Shown here piece after piece: positions 17,400-62,866 of a DNA stretch of 64,000 bases; the first letter of the stretch is position 1, and each line of letters starts with the position of its first letter. The stretch lies in assembly GCA_031291595.1 (NCBI GenBank), contig JARLIU010000097.1, positions 1 through 64,000 on the forward strand, written 5' to 3'. The translations under genes and the position numbers were made by a program. The notes below the pieces were generated by a model. The model made no database searches. It was given only the letters and a program-made list of their open reading frames with translations, and had not been told where the DNA came from. The DNA comes from Ancalomicrobiaceae bacterium. Lineage in GTDB: Bacteria; Pseudomonadota; Alphaproteobacteria; Rhizobiales; Ancalomicrobiaceae.

Positions 17400-18042
17400 A
17401 AGGCGGGGGGGATGCTCCTATCTCTCCCCTTGCCCAAATTCGCACGTGCCTGTGGCTGCGTGCCGGTTTGATGACTTCCAGGGACAAGAGGCCCGGAACA
17501 CGTCAGGGCAAAACCGGCAGCCGGAGAGCGAAACCGGCGCACCCCGTATCTCATACGGGGGACGTGGCTTGAAGCAACGACGTAGAGGGCTTTTTTGGTC
17601 TCTGCCGGCTTTCCATCAGCCGGGGTTACTGAAGAGGCGTCTATCTCCTTGCCGGGCGTGCGGTTCGGGAATCCCCGATCCAATCCATGGCACCCAGACG
17701 AACGGTCGCGGCGTGGTTTTGCGCAACGATTTGTCGTCTCCGCGTTTGCACGAACGCGGACTCTGGCCGGCTCCGCCGGCTCTCGGTCGGTTCTTTCGAC
17801 GTCAAGCCGTCTCCATCGCGGCTGAAGCGTCGGTGAGGTCCTGCCGACGATTCTTCGACAGCGGCTTGATGCCGTGGCCGAAGAGCAGGCTCGCGCCGGT
17901 TCGCCGGTGAGCGAGGGTGACCGCTGAGCGAAACGGATCCCGTGGCTACTGCCGCGGTGGCGGTCTTCGCTCTTGTTTTGGCTTCAGGCTGAGACCGAAA
18001 CGGGTCTCGCCGTTGCTTGGATACGGATTGGAGTACCCTGTC
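17400..18042 (+). ncRNA. Structured 5' leader of ODC gene (candidate speF-type leader RNA); boundaries approximate
   Basis: Hairpins CCCCGTAT-ctc-ATACGGGG (17542-17560), CCGGCT..AGCCGG (17605-17623), CCGCGTT..AACGCGG (about 17737-17760), GAGACC-gaaacg-GGTCTC (17991-18008) directly upstream of ODC; speF leader motif is known upstream of alphaproteobacterial ODC genes. Confidence 0.5.
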
Positions 18043-19173
18043 ATGACCGACCGCATCCGCGATTTTCTGCGCGCCAATCGCCCCGACGGCCCCTGCCTCG
18101 TGGTCGATCTCAATGTCGTGCGCGGCAACTATCAGCGGTTCGTCCGCGCCATGCCCGATACCCGCATCTACTACGCGGTGAAGGCCAACCCGGCGCCGGA
18201 AGTTCTCAACACGCTCGCCGAACTGGGCTCGTCGTTCGACACCGCCTCGGTCGCCGAGATCCAGATGGTGCTGGCGACCGGCGCCGCGCCCGACCGCATC
18301 TCCTACGGCAACACCATCAAGAAGGAGCGCGATATCGCCCGGGCCTATCAGCTCGGCATTCGCCTCTACGCGGTGGACTGCGTCGCCGAAGTGGAGAAGG
18401 TGGCGCGCGCCGCCCCCGGCTCGCAGGTGTTCTGCCGCATCCTGTCGGATGGCGCCGGCGCCGAATGGCCGCTGTCGAAGAAGTTCGGCTGCGTGCCGGA
18501 GATGGCGCCGGACGTGCTCGAGCATGCCCATCACCTCGGGCTTGTCGCCTATGGCGTGTCGTTCCATGTCGGCTCGCAGCAGGTCAACACCGAGGCCTGG
18601 GACAGCGCGCTGGCGTCGGCCGCCTGGGTCTTCCGCCGGATGGCCGAACGCGGCATCCAGCTGAAGATGGTCAACATGGGCGGCGGCTTCCCGACCCGCT
18701 ACCTGCGTCAGGTGCCGGAGGTGAACGCCTACGGCACCTCGATCACCAATGCGGTCAGGGCTCACTTCGGCAACGACCTGCCCGAGACCATCATCGAGCC
18801 GGGCCGCGGCATGGTCGGCGACGCCGGCATCATCAAGGCCGAAGTCGTGCTGATCTCCAAGAAGAGCGAAGACGACCGAGTCCGATGGGTCTACCTCGAC
18901 ATCGGCAAGTTCGGCGGTCTCGCCGAAACCATGGACGAGGCGATCCGCTATCCGATCCTCACCGAGCGGGACGCGGACGACAAGGAGCCTTGCGTGTTGG
19001 CCGGCCCGACCTGCGATTCGGTCGACGTGCTGTACGAGAAGACCCCCTATGATCTGCCGATCAGCCTCGAGATCGGCGATGAAGTGCTGATCGAAGGAAC
19101 GGGTGCCTACACCACGACCTACTCAGCGGTGGCTTTCAACGGCTTCGAGCCGTTGCGGGCCTATGTGATCTGA
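18043..19173 (+). CDS. Ornithine/lysine decarboxylase, fold-type III PLP enzyme
   Basis: RIYYAVKANPAPEVLNTLAELGSSFDTAS; FHVGSQ; EPGRGMVGDAG; GPTCDSVDV. Confidence 0.92.
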   Translation: MTDRIRDFLRANRPDGPCLVVDLNVVRGNYQRFVRAMPDTRIYYAVKANPAPEVLNTLAELGSSFDTASVAEIQMVLATGAAPDRISYGNTIKKERDIARAYQLGIRLYAVDCVAEVEKVARAAPGSQVFCRILSDGAGAEWPLSKKFGCVPEMAPDVLEHAHHLGLVAYGVSFHVGSQQVNTEAWDSALASAAWVFRRMAERGIQLKMVNMGGGFPTRYLRQVPEVNAYGTSITNAVRAHFGNDLPETIIEPGRGMVGDAGIIKAEVVLISKKSEDDRVRWVYLDIGKFGGLAETMDEAIRYPILTERDADDKEPCVLAGPTCDSVDVLYEKTPYDLPISLEIGDEVLIEGTGAYTTTYSAVAFNGFEPLRAYVI

Positions 19174-20180: not shown

Positions 20181-20256
20181 CTAGTGCACCGACTCATTCA
20201 TTCGCTTCATAGTGCTGCAGGTTCGTGAGCGAATGAATGAGTCAAAGGTGCCCTAG
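20181..20256. repeat. Palindromic element A1 (CTAGTG family), first half of paired element
   Basis: Left arm CTAGTGCACC-GACTCATTCATTCGCT; right arm reverse complement CTAGGGCACC-TTT-GACTCATTCATTCGCT. Confidence 0.9.
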
Positions 20257-20269
20257 CAACCCTATGACT

Positions 20270-20348
20270 CTAGTGCAGTTTACGACACAAACACTTGATC
20301 GGCGAACCCGCGGCACGCATGAATCAAGTGTTTGTGTCACTGCACTAG
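20270..20348. repeat. Palindromic element A2 (CTAGTG family), second half of paired element
   Basis: Left arm CTAGTGCAGT-TTAC-GACACAAACACTTGAT; right arm reverse complement CTAGTGCAGT-GACACAAACACTTGAT. Confidence 0.9.
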
Positions 20349-20378: not shown

Positions 20379-21809
20379 ATGTCGACCTGGCCCGTCTATC
20401 ACACCATCACCGGTCCCATCGTCATGATCGGCTTCGGCTCGATCGGGCGCGGCATGCTGCCGCTGATCGAGCGCCATTTCGACTTCGATTCCAAGCGCAT
20501 GGTGGTGATCGATCCGGTCGACGACGATCGCAAGCTGTTGGACGAGCGCGGTATCCGCTACCTCCAGGCCGCCGTCACCCGTGACAACTACCGCGACCTG
20601 CTGGCCCCCCTCCTCACCGAGGGCGACGGCCGGGGCTTCTGCGTCAACCTGTCCGTCGACACCTCCTCGCTCGACATCATGCGGCTCTGCCGCGAGTTGG
20701 GCGTGCTCTACATCGATACCGTCATCGAGCCCTGGCTCGGCTTCTACTTCGACAAGACCAAGGACGTGGCGGCACGCTCCAACTACGCGTTGCGCGAGAC
20801 GCTCCTCGCCGAAATGCGCGCCAGCCCCGGCGGCACGACCGCGGTCAGTTGCTGCGGCGCCAACCCGGGCATGGTGTCCTGGTTCGTCAAGCAGGCGCTC
20901 ATCGACATCGCCCGCGATACCGGCCACCCGACCGAAGTCCCGACCTCGCGCGACGGCTGGGGCCGGCTGGCGAAGCAACTCGGCGTGAAGGGCATTCACA
21001 TCGCCGAGCGCGACACCCAGCGCGCTCGCGATCCCAAGCCCGCCGATGTCTTCGTCAACACCTGGTCGGTGGAGGGCTTCGTCTCGGAAGGCAACCAGCC
21101 GGCCGAACTCGGCTGGGGCACGCATGAGACCTGGCTGCCGGCGAACGGCCGCACGCACCCGGAAGGCTGCGGCGCCGCCGTCTATCTCTTACAGGCGGGT
21201 GCCAATACCCGCGTCCGCTCCTGGTGCCCGACCCCCGGCGCGCAATACGGTTTCCTCGTCACCCACAACGAGGCGATCTCGATTGCCGACTATCTGACGG
21301 TGCGCGACGGCGACACGGTCGTCTATCGCCCGACTTGCCATTACGCCTATCACCCGGCCAACGATGCCGTGCTGTCGCTGCACGAGATGTTCGGCGCCAC
21401 CGGCCGCATGCAGTCGGATTGGAAGATCTTGGACGAGCACGAAATCGTCGACGGCGTCGACGAACTCGGCGTCCTCATCTTCGGCCACTCAAAGAACGCC
21501 TATTGGTACGGCTCGCGCCTCTCCATCGAGGAGACCCGTCGGTTGGCGCCTTACCAGAACGCCACCGGCATGCAGGTCAGTTCCGCCGTGCTCGCCGGTA
21601 TGGTCTGGGCGTTGGAAAATCCAACCTCGGGTATCGTCGAAGCCGACGAGATCGACTTCAGACGCTGCCTTGAGGTGCAGCGGCCCTATCTCGGCCCGCT
21701 CGAAGGTCACTACACCGATTGGACGCCGCTCGCCGACCGCCCCGGGCTGTTCCCAGAGGACCTCGACGTGAGCGAGCCGTGGAGCTTTCGCAACGTCTTG
21801 GTGCGGTGA
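20379..21809 (+). CDS. hss: Homospermidine synthase
   Basis: MIGFGSIGRGMLPLIERHFDFDSKRMVVIDP; YIDTVIEPWLGFY; CCGANPGMVSWFVKQAL. Confidence 0.94.
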   Translation: MSTWPVYHTITGPIVMIGFGSIGRGMLPLIERHFDFDSKRMVVIDPVDDDRKLLDERGIRYLQAAVTRDNYRDLLAPLLTEGDGRGFCVNLSVDTSSLDIMRLCRELGVLYIDTVIEPWLGFYFDKTKDVAARSNYALRETLLAEMRASPGGTTAVSCCGANPGMVSWFVKQALIDIARDTGHPTEVPTSRDGWGRLAKQLGVKGIHIAERDTQRARDPKPADVFVNTWSVEGFVSEGNQPAELGWGTHETWLPANGRTHPEGCGAAVYLLQAGANTRVRSWCPTPGAQYGFLVTHNEAISIADYLTVRDGDTVVYRPTCHYAYHPANDAVLSLHEMFGATGRMQSDWKILDEHEIVDGVDELGVLIFGHSKNAYWYGSRLSIEETRRLAPYQNATGMQVSSAVLAGMVWALENPTSGIVEADEIDFRRCLEVQRPYLGPLEGHYTDWTPLADRPGLFPEDLDVSEPWSFRNVLVR

Positions 21810-58637: not shown

Positions 58638-58716
58638 CTAGTGGAGCGAATTCGACATTTGAGCCCCAGCGTGCGGGAAGAGACGAACTCAAATGTCGAA
58701 TTCAAAGCTCCACTAG
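58638..58716. repeat. Palindromic element B1 (CTAGTG family), first half of paired element
   Basis: Left arm CTAGTGGAGC-GAATTCGACATTTGAG; right arm reverse complement CTAGTGGAGC-TTT-GAATTCGACATTTGAG. Confidence 0.9.
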
Positions 58717-58729
58717 ATTCAATAAGTTG

Positions 58730-58806
58730 CTAGTGGCCCTTTGACTCCGACATTTGCTCAAGCACGTGCGGCAAGTGGGATGCAAAGGTCGGAGTCGGAC
58801 CACTAG
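58730..58806. repeat. Palindromic element B2 (CTAGTG family), second half of paired element
   Basis: Left arm CTAGTGGCCC-TTT-GACTCCGACATTTGC; right arm reverse complement CTAGTGGTCC-GACTCCGACCTTTGC. Confidence 0.9.
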
Positions 58807-58836: not shown

Positions 58837-60036
58837 ATGATGCATCGCCAACTGATCGCAAGTGTCTCTAGCTTCCTCTCCAACGCGGTAGTCATCGGCG
58901 GATACCAGGATCCCTCCGCCGCCTATCTAGCGCGGCGGCGTTGGCGCGCGCTGATGCTGCGGCTGGCCTTTTGGCTGCTGGTTGCCTTGCCGACCACCGC
59001 CGCCGCCGTCTTCTACGGCCTGATCGCTGGGCCCCGCTACGAATCGGAAGCGCGGTTCATCGTGCGCAGCGTCGCCTCGCAGCAGACGACGGGCTTTGAC
59101 GCGGTGTTCCGTACCTTCGGCCTCGCCAAGACGGTCGACGACGCCTACGTCATTCAGAAGTACCTTTTATCGCGCGATGCCCTCGACGGGCTGGCGCAGC
59201 AGGGACCCGACCCGCGGACCGTGTTCTCGCGGCCCGAAATCGACCGCCTGTCGCGCTATCCCCGGTTCTGGCGCGAGGCCTCCAACGAATCGCTCTACGA
59301 CTTCTATCTCGACCACGTCGATGTGACGGAGGACGACGTCAAAGGCATTGTCCGGATCCGCGTGGTTGCGTTCCGTCCCGATGACGCCCAGGCCGTCGTC
59401 GTATCGCTGCTGCACCTTGCCGAAGCGATGGTCAACCGCATGAACGAACGAGCCCAGTCCGACTCGTTGAATTTTGCCCGCAGCGAGGTCAAGCGCGCCG
59501 AGGCCAACGTGATCACGGCGCAGCAGGAACTGGCCGCCTATCGCAACAAGGAATTGATCGTCGATCCGTCGAAGTCGGCCACGAGCATGATCGAGACGAT
59601 CGGCGGGTTGAGCGGCGATCTGGCCCGCGCCAATGCCCAGTTGAAGGAAACGCAGGCGATGTCGCCGCGCAGTCCGTCCATCCCGTCGATCAAGGCGCGC
59701 ATCGCGGCGCTCGACGAGCGGATCGGGATCGAGCGCCAGCGTCTGGCCGGCGGCGACACGTCTCTCGCCAACAAGCTGGGCGAGTACGAACGGCGCGTCC
59801 TCGCCCGGGATCTCGCCGACCGCGGTCTGACGAACGCATTGGAATCGCTCGATACCGCGCGACAGGAGGCGCATCGCCAACACATTTACGTGGAAGAAGT
59901 GGTGCAGCCGACGCTCCCGGACGAATCGACCGAACCAAAACGGCTGAGAAGCATCTTGACGGTGTTCGTGCTGGGCTTCGCCCTGTTCGGGGTCTGCTGG
60001 ATCCTGGTGGTCGGTGCGGGAGAACACGCCCAATGA
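58837..60036 (+). CDS. Capsule polysaccharide export inner-membrane protein, KpsE/BexC/CtrB-like (copy 1)
   Basis: RYESEARFIVRSVASQQTTGFDAVFRTFGLAKTVDDAYVIQKYLLSRDAL; coiled-coil between two TM segments. Confidence 0.88.
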   Translation: MMHRQLIASVSSFLSNAVVIGGYQDPSAAYLARRRWRALMLRLAFWLLVALPTTAAAVFYGLIAGPRYESEARFIVRSVASQQTTGFDAVFRTFGLAKTVDDAYVIQKYLLSRDALDGLAQQGPDPRTVFSRPEIDRLSRYPRFWREASNESLYDFYLDHVDVTEDDVKGIVRIRVVAFRPDDAQAVVVSLLHLAEAMVNRMNERAQSDSLNFARSEVKRAEANVITAQQELAAYRNKELIVDPSKSATSMIETIGGLSGDLARANAQLKETQAMSPRSPSIPSIKARIAALDERIGIERQRLAGGDTSLANKLGEYERRVLARDLADRGLTNALESLDTARQEAHRQHIYVEEVVQPTLPDESTEPKRLRSILTVFVLGFALFGVCWILVVGAGEHAQ

Positions 60037-60851
60037 GTGTGTTTCGCGGGACCGACGACGATGGTCGCGAGCCGAGCTTCCTCGCCGCTTTTGCCGTGCA
60101 GCGGCGGATCGTTGCCGCGCTGATGATCCGCGAAGGCCTGCGTCGCTTCGGCCACGACAATCTCGGCTTCTTCTGGGTGCTCGGCGAGCCGATGGTGCTG
60201 ACCGTCGGTGTGATGGGCATGTGGACCATTTCAGGCATGGGGCATGGTCACAACCTGAGGATTATCCCATTCGCCCTGTCCGGCTATTCGATGCTGACGC
60301 TGTGGCGCCACGTCTCCGGCTCCTCGGCTCATGCGCTGCGCGAAAGCAGCGGACTGCTGTTCCACAGCAATATCCGTCTGCTCGACATTCTGATCGCCCG
60401 CTGCGCCCTGGAGAGCCTCGGCGGCTTCGCTGCGTTCTGCGTCGCCTATTTGCCGCTCAACCTGCTCGGTTACGTCGAAACCATCGACGACCCGCTGCTG
60501 CTGGTCGGAGGATGGTTGTTCATGACGTGGTTCGCGTTCGGCTTTGGTCTGGCGATCGCCGGGCTTTGCCAGATGTTCGAGGTGATCGAGCATTTCGTCC
60601 CGCCGCTCCTTTACCTGACGTTGCCGGTTACCGGTGCGTTCTACATGATAAATTGGTTGCCTGAGTCGGCGCAGGCGATCGTTCGATGGTCGCCTCTCGT
60701 CCAGGTCTTCGAAATGTTTCGTGCTGGCTTGTTCGGCAATGAGGTGACGGCGGACTGGAATGTCGGCTTCCTGACGCTGTGCTGTCTCGGCATCACCGCG
60801 GTGGGGCTGACGCTCGTACAGATGGCCCAGAAGCACATCGAGATCCACTGA
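60033..60851 (+). CDS. ABC-2 type polysaccharide export permease, KpsM-like
   Basis: ALMIREGLRRFGHDNLGFFWVLGEPMVLTVGVMGMW; PLLYLTLPVTGAFYMINWLPESAQAIVRWSPLVQVFEMFRAGLFG. Confidence 0.9.
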   Translation: MSVFRGTDDDGREPSFLAAFAVQRRIVAALMIREGLRRFGHDNLGFFWVLGEPMVLTVGVMGMWTISGMGHGHNLRIIPFALSGYSMLTLWRHVSGSSAHALRESSGLLFHSNIRLLDILIARCALESLGGFAAFCVAYLPLNLLGYVETIDDPLLLVGGWLFMTWFAFGFGLAIAGLCQMFEVIEHFVPPLLYLTLPVTGAFYMINWLPESAQAIVRWSPLVQVFEMFRAGLFGNEVTADWNVGFLTLCCLGITAVGLTLVQMAQKHIEIH

Positions 60852-60860
60852 GGATCCCCC

Positions 60861-62096
60861 ATGACGACGAAGCGCGTCGAACGCGAAAACACCAGCATCG
60901 AGATCGTCCCCGAACATCCCGTCGTTCGGCAGATCGAACTGGTGCCGCTGCAAATCCCTGACGAAGCCCAGTCGGACCCACGGGCCGCCACCGGCGTCGG
61001 CGCTCGCAGGCCGTGGTGGCGCCGCAACGCGCTGTTCATCGTCTTCTTCCTGCTGCCGGTGGCACTTGCGGTGCTGTACTTCGGCGTACTGGCCGCCAAC
61101 GTCTATGTCGCCGAAGCCAAGTTCATCGTCCGCTCGTCGCGGTCCGACAGCAGTCCCCTGGCGGCTCTCGCCCAGGGCCAGGGTATGAGCCGGGCGGTTG
61201 ACGAGACCTACGCTGTCACGGAGTTCATCCTGTCGCGCGATGCCGTCGCCCGGCTCGTTCGCGACTACGATCTCAAGGGCATCTTGTCCCGTCCCGAGGC
61301 GGACATGTTCGGACGCTTCCCGAACGCCTTCTTCCCCGACAATCAGGAGCGTCTGCTACGCGCCTATCTCGGTTTCGTCGACGCCGACGTCGACGCAGCG
61401 ACTGGCATATCGACGCTGGAGGCGACGGCGTTCCGCCCGGACGACGCCTTCACCCTCGCCAAAGCCCTGCTGGCGATTGGCCAGGATTTCGTCAACCGGA
61501 TGAATCTGCGGGCCAACCAGGATGCCGTCGAATTCGCCAACGCTCTCGTCGGCGAGGCGCAAACCCGGGTGGCCGACGTCGAACAGAAGATAGCCGACTA
61601 TCGCAACCACAACCTCGTCGTCGATCCGGGGCAGGAATCGTCGACGTCACTGGCCGATCTTGCTAAAATGGCAATCGAGTTGTCCCGCCTCGAAGCGTCG
61701 CTGGCGCAGCAGATCTCCCTGGCACCCGACAGCCCCGGCATCGCCGCGTTACGTGGACAGGTCGATTCCTACCGGGCCGAGATGCAGAAGCTGCAGAGTA
61801 GCGTGGTCGGTGGCGCCGATTCGATTGCCAGCAAGATGCAGGGATACGAGATGCTGATGCTCGAGCGCGATCTGGCGACCAAGGGACTGGCGAGCGCCAC
61901 AGCCGAACTCGAGCGGGCTCGTCATGAAGCCCAGAGCCAGCGCATCTACCTGCAGACCGTGGTCGAGCCGAGCCAGCCGGACTATCCGCGCCTGCCGTAC
62001 CGCGCTCTGTCGATCGCCTTCGTGACGCTCGTGAGCTACTGCGTCTACCGGATCATCCGCGGCTTCGTCGACGCAACCCTGGAGCATCGCGCATGA
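60861..62096 (+). CDS. Capsule polysaccharide export inner-membrane protein, KpsE/BexC/CtrB-like (copy 2)
   Basis: VYVAEAKFIVRSSRSDSSPLAALAQGQGMSRAVDETYAVTEFILSRDAVARL, parallel to copy 1. Confidence 0.88.
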   Translation: MTTKRVERENTSIEIVPEHPVVRQIELVPLQIPDEAQSDPRAATGVGARRPWWRRNALFIVFFLLPVALAVLYFGVLAANVYVAEAKFIVRSSRSDSSPLAALAQGQGMSRAVDETYAVTEFILSRDAVARLVRDYDLKGILSRPEADMFGRFPNAFFPDNQERLLRAYLGFVDADVDAATGISTLEATAFRPDDAFTLAKALLAIGQDFVNRMNLRANQDAVEFANALVGEAQTRVADVEQKIADYRNHNLVVDPGQESSTSLADLAKMAIELSRLEASLAQQISLAPDSPGIAALRGQVDSYRAEMQKLQSSVVGGADSIASKMQGYEMLMLERDLATKGLASATAELERARHEAQSQRIYLQTVVEPSQPDYPRLPYRALSIAFVTLVSYCVYRIIRGFVDATLEHRA

Positions 62097-62866
62097 GCGG
62101 ACGGCTGCTCGCCAATCTCCGTCGCCCTCAAGTGATCGGCGCCGAGCCTGCGCCAAATCCGCGACCGGCCCCCCGCAATCAGCTCGTGGCCGGCGAGGCG
62201 GCCGCCGGGCGGGCGGGCGAGATCCGCGTCACCAACCTCGTCAAGGACTATCGCACCGCCATCGGCACCAGGCGGGTGCTCGACGGCATCTCGTTCGACG
62301 TCGGCATGGGCGAGAAGATCGCCGTGCTCGGCCGCAACGGCGCCGGCAAGTCGACGCTGGTCAAGCTGATCGGCGGCGTCGAACAGCCGACCGCCGGCAC
62401 CATCACGCGCGGGCTCGCAATGTCCTGGCCGATCGCCTTCAGCGGCGGCTTCGAGATAACCATGAGCGGTCTCGACAACATTCGCTTCATTGCCCGCCTT
62501 TATGGCGTGCCGGTCGACGATGCGGTCGCCAGCGTCGACGAGTTCGCCGAACTCGGTCGCCAGTTGCTGATGCCGGTGATGCTGTATTCATCCGGCATGC
62601 GCGCGCGGCTGGCGTTCGGACTGACGCTGGCGGTCGATTTCGATTGCTTCCTGATCGACGAGGTCATCGCCGTCGGCGATCAGCGCTTCCAGCGCAAGTG
62701 CCACGACGAACTGTTCGTCAAACGCGCCCACTGCGCGATGATCCTGGTCAGCCACGACAGCCACACCATCCGCACCTATTGCAACAAGGCCCTGGTGTTG
62801 AAGGCCGGCCGCGGCCGGGTGTTCGAGGACCTGGATCTGGCTCTGGCCATCTACAACACGCTTTGA
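62093..62866 (+). CDS. Polysaccharide export ATP-binding protein, KpsT-like
   Basis: VLGRNGAGKSTLVKLIGGVEQPTAGTI; YSSGMRARLAFGLTLAVDFDCFLIDEVIAVGDQRF. Confidence 0.93.
   Translation: MSGRLLANLRRPQVIGAEPAPNPRPAPRNQLVAGEAAAGRAGEIRVTNLVKDYRTAIGTRRVLDGISFDVGMGEKIAVLGRNGAGKSTLVKLIGGVEQPTAGTITRGLAMSWPIAFSGGFEITMSGLDNIRFIARLYGVPVDDAVASVDEFAELGRQLLMPVMLYSSGMRARLAFGLTLAVDFDCFLIDEVIAVGDQRFQRKCHDELFVKRAHCAMILVSHDSHTIRTYCNKALVLKAGRGRVFEDLDLALAIYNTL

Follow-up and report, generated by a model that had tools for sequence, protein, structure and literature searches.

A CTAG-bounded paired-hairpin repeat of Alphaproteobacteria is likely a short non-autonomous mobile element

Two copies of a paired-hairpin element occur in the 64,000-nucleotide stretch of Ancalomicrobiaceae DNA analyzed here (the window), and each of them ends 30 nt before an ATG: copy B before the ATG at 58837, at the head of a probable capsule export operon, and copy A before that of hss at 20379. 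The sequence-only reading of this locus had noted the coincidence, which the coordinates confirm for both copies, and had taken such conserved placement to suggest either a cis-regulatory 5′ UTR element or targeted insertion. The locus raises the question of which of these the element is, a structure that acts in the transcript or a piece of DNA that has moved to its present site.

Copy B folds into two hairpins on either side of a short linker (Table 1). All four hairpin feet read CTAGTG/CACTAG, and the bulges of the two hairpins face the linker and adjoin the 10-bp outer stem. The geometry previously read from the letters (B1, a 13-nt spacer and B2, 169 bp in all against 168 bp for copy A) is borne out, as is the placement of the bulges in the right arm of B1, where the bulge reads AAA, and in the left arm of B2, where it reads TTT. 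Inner-stem complementarity amounts to 16/16 in B1 and 14/15 in B2; the single mismatch attributed to B2 is right for this inner stem, but a second one sits in the outer stem (CTAGTGGCCC vs GGACCACTAG). A region of 211 nt containing copy B folds at -90.7 kcal/mol (z = -5.5), a value as low being reached by 0 of 200 shuffled sequences.

Table 1. Coordinates of the element copies and of the genes following copy B (window numbering).
Feature	Position	Strand	Remarks
Two-hairpin CTAG element, copy B, 169 bp	58638..58806	+	Canonical orientation H1 - linker - H2
Hairpin H1 (B1), 79 nt	58638..58716	+	Outer stem 58638-58647/58707-58716
H1 (B1) inner parts			Inner stem 58648-58663/58688-58703; AAA bulge 58704-58706; loop 58664-58687
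Linker of copy B, 13 nt	58717..58729	+	ATTCAATAAGTTG; family consensus AATCATAAAGTTG
Hairpin H2 (B2), 77 nt	58730..58806	+	Outer stem 58730-58739/58797-58806
H2 (B2) inner parts			TTT bulge 58740-58742 (left arm); inner stem 58743-58757/58782-58796; loop 58758-58781
Left terminal CTAG of copy B	58638..58641	.	Target site, presumed duplicated (left copy)
Right terminal CTAG of copy B	58803..58806	.	Target site, presumed duplicated (right copy)
Copy A, 168 bp, of subfamily A	20181..20348	-	Orientation opposite relative to downstream gene hss
Wzz-like chain-length/capsule export protein, KpsE type	58837..60036	+	Pfam match below curated cut-off; heads a probable capsule ABC-export operon
Rest of probable capsule operon	60033-62866		ABC-2 permease, a further protein, ABC ATPase

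Copy A is built on the same plan as copy B with different stem sequences. Blastn aligns about 100 nt of the two at 71% identity on opposite strands, and the linker of copy A, CAACCCTATGACT, is a ATTCAATAAGTTG-type linker in reverse complement. Judged by sequence, copies A and B are diverged relatives. The 'same geometry' ascribed to them stands for the overall plan, but one bulge of copy A has 4 nt (TTAC) and the two copies are oriented oppositely to the genes that follow them.

The window's own assembly (G000) contains at least 40 near-full copies with 82-96% identity when searched with copy B, and several of these lie at contig ends, so the true copy number is higher. One terminal arm alone gives 70 matches with up to 3 mismatches in G000, compared to 0 for the reversed control pattern. 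At least about 20 copies are present in a second genome of the genus, G002, while none were found in a third, G001. We distinguish subfamilies B, S and A, the copies of G002 grouping with S; subfamily A has 4 copies in G000, the other three being about 96% identical to copy A. Dispersed copies have sharp, constant boundaries and carry terminal inverted repeats, each end having CTAGTG and then a similar arm (CTAGTGGAGCGAATTCGACATTTG and CTAGTGGTCCGACTCCGACATTTG). About 10 copies in G000 are single hairpins that combine the terminal arms of H1 and H2. The fusion point lies in the left arms, in the right arms or in the loop, and these derivatives show that both terminal arms are retained. In one copy (L017, G000 C41:2449-2617) the H1 loop runs opposite to that of the other copies read, and the arms are unchanged. 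The single-hairpin copies together with this inverted loop point to recombination or strand switching within hairpins. Two further loci of G000 (L057 and L059, on contigs C129 and C305) have identical flanking sequence and different element sequence, a pair that suggests a duplication or a strain mixture in the assembly.

With so many copies at hand, the 30-nt spacing can be compared to what is seen elsewhere. Using simple gene calls made for this analysis, we located about 57 copies with usable flanks relative to their neighboring genes. The distances from copy to start codon range from 10 to 893 nt with mixed orientations, and copies are located 5′ of genes, 3′ of genes or between converging genes. 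Because distances and orientations vary in this way, the 30-nt spacing of the two window copies is a matter of chance and not a rule, and the idea of a conserved, cis-regulatory placement loses its support; randomly placed and oriented copies are what the sequence-only reading had named as evidence against it. The start codon of the kps gene is itself insecure, with no clear Shine-Dalgarno in the sequence.

The other proposal, targeted insertion, holds, and the target appears to be CTAG or near-CTAG. Copies start and end with CTAG. Of the four A copies, two begin within a CTAG that bounds an S copy, those four bases being common to both elements, and junctions between different subfamilies that share a CTAG occur in Brucella, Chelatococcus, Nitrobacter, Bradyrhizobium and others. 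In a Parvularculaceae genome (L267:1-328), two near-identical 166-bp elements stand in tandem with one CTAG in common. A search for empty sites in relatives, which had been recommended, succeeded for one of the two window copies: the hss locus of G002 lacks copy A and constitutes a clean unoccupied orthologous site, while for copy B no unoccupied site was found in the genomes searched. With one CTAG kept, the G000 junction CAACAC-CTAGCCATCAGTT-CCAGCC equals the G002 sequence CAACAC-ATCCCAATCATTC-CCAGCC in length. Three additional loci support this clean case: L005, where the gene ends GACTAG in G000 and GAATAG in G002; L011, with GGCTAG against GGCTGA/GGCTAA in relatives; and L014, which aligns through the site with one tetranucleotide retained. 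At the unoccupied sites the relatives read ATCC, ATAG or CTGA and never CTAG itself, so that an ancestral CTAG has to be supposed.

The unoccupied orthologous site, the nested insertions and the insertions exactly at TAG stop codons described below indicate that the element probably inserts into a CTAG-like target whose sequence becomes duplicated. The lengths fit a 4-bp duplication of CTAG, which would have taken place upon insertion. Alternatively, the duplication could comprise 2 bp (TA), in which case the C and the G would be part of a strict target. The tetranucleotide is scarce, with 30 occurrences of CTAG in the window compared to about 204 expected from base composition, an approximately sevenfold under-representation. 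GANTC is also strongly under-represented in the window (positions 1-64000), with 105 occurrences against 348 in shuffles.

Stop codons provide a second view of the target. In G000, 18 of 48 stop codons adjacent to elements are the TAG inside the terminal CTAG of the element. Such an exact positional rule is found only at the 3′ ends of genes. In other genomes, 35 of 222 element ends fall at stop codons (about 30% of elements), compared to 35 of 489 strand readings for other CTAGs taken as control (about 14% of sites). The simplest reading of this pattern is insertion into existing CTAGs and survival where no gene is broken. An insertion at a C-TAG stop would leave the gene intact, the CTAG containing the TAG, and copies are found there as well as intergenically.

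To look beyond the genus we searched GTDB genomes with the pattern CTAGTG-N50..80-CACTAG-N13-CTAGTG-N50..80-CACTAG, in which the 13-nt linker is fixed. At least 118 stretches match, and among the matches listed every record titled with a class or a lower taxon is alphaproteobacterial, one being labeled only Proteobacteria. The architecture of four CTAGs, two 25-bp stems and a linker-facing bulge recurs in many alphaproteobacterial orders, and a search with a covariance model recovers it from 22 of 385 genomes sampled in the class, with a patchy distribution over many families. Most elements are 160-172 bp long; some genomes have a compact version (about 126 bp) in which the loops of the hairpins read are about 4 nt long, and the long loops are therefore dispensable. 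Over all forms the hairpins measure about 54-80 nt. In L168, L198, L237 and others the stems read GAAGTTCCTA...TAGGAACTTC, which we take to match the arms of FRT, the target of yeast FLP, over about 10 bases; this likeness is probably due to chance.

What is conserved across this range is the pairing of the stems. In 121 parsed elements the inner stems are 94-95% complementary, compared to 62-68% with the arms shuffled, and the arm facing the linker almost always carries the bulge, which is mostly 3-4 nt long. An alignment of 30 sequences covering the linker and H2 has 18 of 25 pairs changed on both sides, with 144 doubly changed cells against 9 one-sided ones, 7 of which occur at one position. 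Paired cells amount to 97.6% and fall to 27-37% when the partner is slid, a slide by one column giving 34-37%. Since one-sided steps such as G-C to G-U are nearly absent, and since neither orientation nor distance to genes is fixed, we infer that the pairing is kept as a DNA hairpin and not as RNA. Hairpin-templated repair instead of selection could be the source of the stem complementarity; such repair would be expected to erase the bulge, yet the bulge persists across lineages.

Taken together, we consider it likely that the element is a short, non-autonomous transposable element of the MITE kind, mobilized in trans, that inserts at CTAG or CTAG-like sites and whose ends may be recognized as hairpins. 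An enzyme encoded elsewhere would move the element, and insertion into CTAG or a CTAG-like site would leave one CTAG per end. The moving unit would reach from the left arm of H1 to the right arm of H2. Both terminal arms are complementary, each to its own internal partner, across the linker-facing bulge, usually of 3-4 nt, and since this complementarity is kept, the moving enzyme may recognize the ends as DNA hairpins or cruciforms, beyond sequence alone. Transposition would accordingly act in trans and would need hairpin DNA. Much more tentative is the broader proposal of an old, class-wide family whose hairpin ends are read by a chromosomal enzyme of a type so far unconnected with repeats of this sort, neither Y1 nor DDE_Tnp_1, and which inserts at CTAG, including the CTAG of stop codons, leaving genes undamaged.

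No transposase was found with the element. The flanks contain no recurrent transposase- or recombinase-like gene family, and a recurrent neighbor was rejected as the mobilizer, the clusters shown being ordinary metabolic, transport and regulatory families as judged by eye. In limited searches no autonomous parent with the same termini was seen in G000 or near 118 elements elsewhere, nor was an autonomous hairpin-gene-hairpin element seen within the 8-kb loci. Carriage by plasmids or phages was rejected as well. Elements are rare on plasmids (17 plasmid records matched, two with near-full matches) and no phage record matched, with the queries used.

The MITE might also descend from a DDE insertion sequence of the ordinary sort, IS5- or IS481-like and targeting CTAG, and internal pairing would then be irrelevant to movement. 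The similar inverted termini, the presumed 4-bp CTAG duplication and the single-hairpin derivatives that keep both terminal arms are in line with such an origin, which we regard as possible but rather doubtful. DDE_Tnp_1 (PF01609) is missing from many carriers, among them G073, G078, G187, G207 and G378, some of them assembled in 1-3 contigs, which rejects an IS4/IS5-type enzyme as the universal mobilizer. G000 is devoid of IS630-type DDE_3, arguing against an IS630-derived MITE, and has a single weak rve match; an IS481/IS3-like parent was set aside on this match and on the rve genes of relatives, beside which no element was found. Among the terminal-arm matches read there is no larger element with these ends, and a plain DDE element has no need for a terminus that matches its internal arm.

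The bulge close to each hairpin foot, the conserved tetranucleotide, the inverted pair of hairpins joined by a linker as in BIMEs, and insertion adjoining a fixed tetranucleotide would also suit a REP/BIME-type repeat mobilized in single-stranded form by a RAYT- or IS200/IS605-like Y1 tyrosine (HUH) transposase. In this reading, which we consider improbable, a CTAG cleavage site would pair with a CTAG guide at each hairpin foot. Y1_Tnp was found neither in G000 nor in 18 of 24 other carriers, no copy adjoins the IS200-like gene of G002, and the tag is CTAG at four feet and not GTAG. No replication-strand bias is seen in 101 loci: orientation agrees with local GC skew in 30 of 62 cases, and with the gene at stop-codon insertions in 31 against 29. 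This lack of bias argues weakly against strand-specific single-strand insertion, local skew being a noisy proxy. In G078 taken alone the elements number only about 9 and the GC skew is unclear.

The element might instead belong to the CcrM-associated intergenic repeats (CIR) of Caulobacter. In PMC2229807, CIR are described as two inverted-repeat arms with a linker and TA termini, intergenic, in Caulobacter, Brucella and relatives, with a length of about 110 bp and GANTC at or in the terminal loop (after Chen and Shapiro 2003). The two-arm and linker plan, the intergenic position and the alphaproteobacterial hosts of our element fit this description, and 97 of 121 elements contain GANTC. Membership nevertheless seems improbable to us: at 160-172 bp for the most part, or about 126 bp in compact form, the elements depart from the length given there, and GANTC is mostly at the foot of the H2 stem and near a loop in only 20 of 121 elements. 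A separate repeat of G000, AGAGC...GCTCT, fits the description of CIR better. This two-armed palindromic repeat has GAATC close to its loop; it abounds in G002 and is found beside copies in G000, often abutting the CTAG element as CTAGAGC (right flank of L011, left flank of L021, end of L081).

The weakest alternative, in which the hairpins would regulate the capsule and hss genes in cis from their 5′ UTRs, is highly improbable and was dropped: both window copies precede an ATG by 30 nt and would make stable RNA hairpins, but the positions of the other copies contradict it, A and B are oriented oppositely relative to the genes they precede, a copy is lacking at hss in G002, the stems contain hardly any G-U intermediates and the element has no Rfam match. 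Features of a structured RNA such as a riboswitch or leader are likewise missing, with no match to a known family and no fixed orientation or gene distance. Elsewhere in the window, Rfam matches the alphaproteobacterial sRNA ar45 (17432-17594) and, directly after it, a speF leader (17603-17740). Both precede a gene at 17917-19173 that, judged by eye, is ornithine-decarboxylase-like.

A single architecture ties the window copies to Brucella, Bradyrhizobium, Caulobacter, Sphingobium, Acidiphilium and Paramagnetospirillum. Stem evolution proceeds through compensated changes, and insertions hit a rare tetranucleotide, often at stop codons. If movement needs the hairpin, the element would join REPs and integron attC sites as another kind of mobile DNA that depends on structure. 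The mobilizer is a concrete target: it must occur in carriers with recent copies and act on CTAG.

Among known repeats, palindromic, intergenic sequences of Alphaproteobacteria such as RIME and Bru-RS are like our element by description. RIME and Bru-RS are palindromic intergenic repeats of Rhizobium and Brucella of about 105-110 bp. Bru-RS is cited in PMC2267715. In the searchable open-licence literature we found no description of CTAG-bounded two-hairpin elements, and an earlier description elsewhere is possible. Correia/NEMIS, RUP and ERIC share with the element a length of about 100-200 bp, dispersal, inverted termini and target duplication, but according to PMC2229807 their termini pair mutually in one foldback, whereas each terminus of the CTAG element pairs with its own internal arm; RUP is described there as inserting at TA and as tied to IS630-Spn1. 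REP/BIME/REPIN sequences are, like the element, high-copy intergenic palindromes with a conserved foot tetranucleotide and are often paired, but they consist of 20-40 bp units with GTAG or CGTC at one end, those with GTAG being linked to Y1 transposases, and PMC3733652, on tagged REPs, makes no mention of CTAG. CIR have in common with the element TA in the termini and no known mobilizer, while the portion of PMC2229807 available reports for them no CTAG target, no stop-codon insertion and no compensated 25-bp bulged stems, a separation made by description. The CTAG element behaves like a MITE and, mostly by description, resembles both CIR and REP/BIME, yet misses a defining feature of each.
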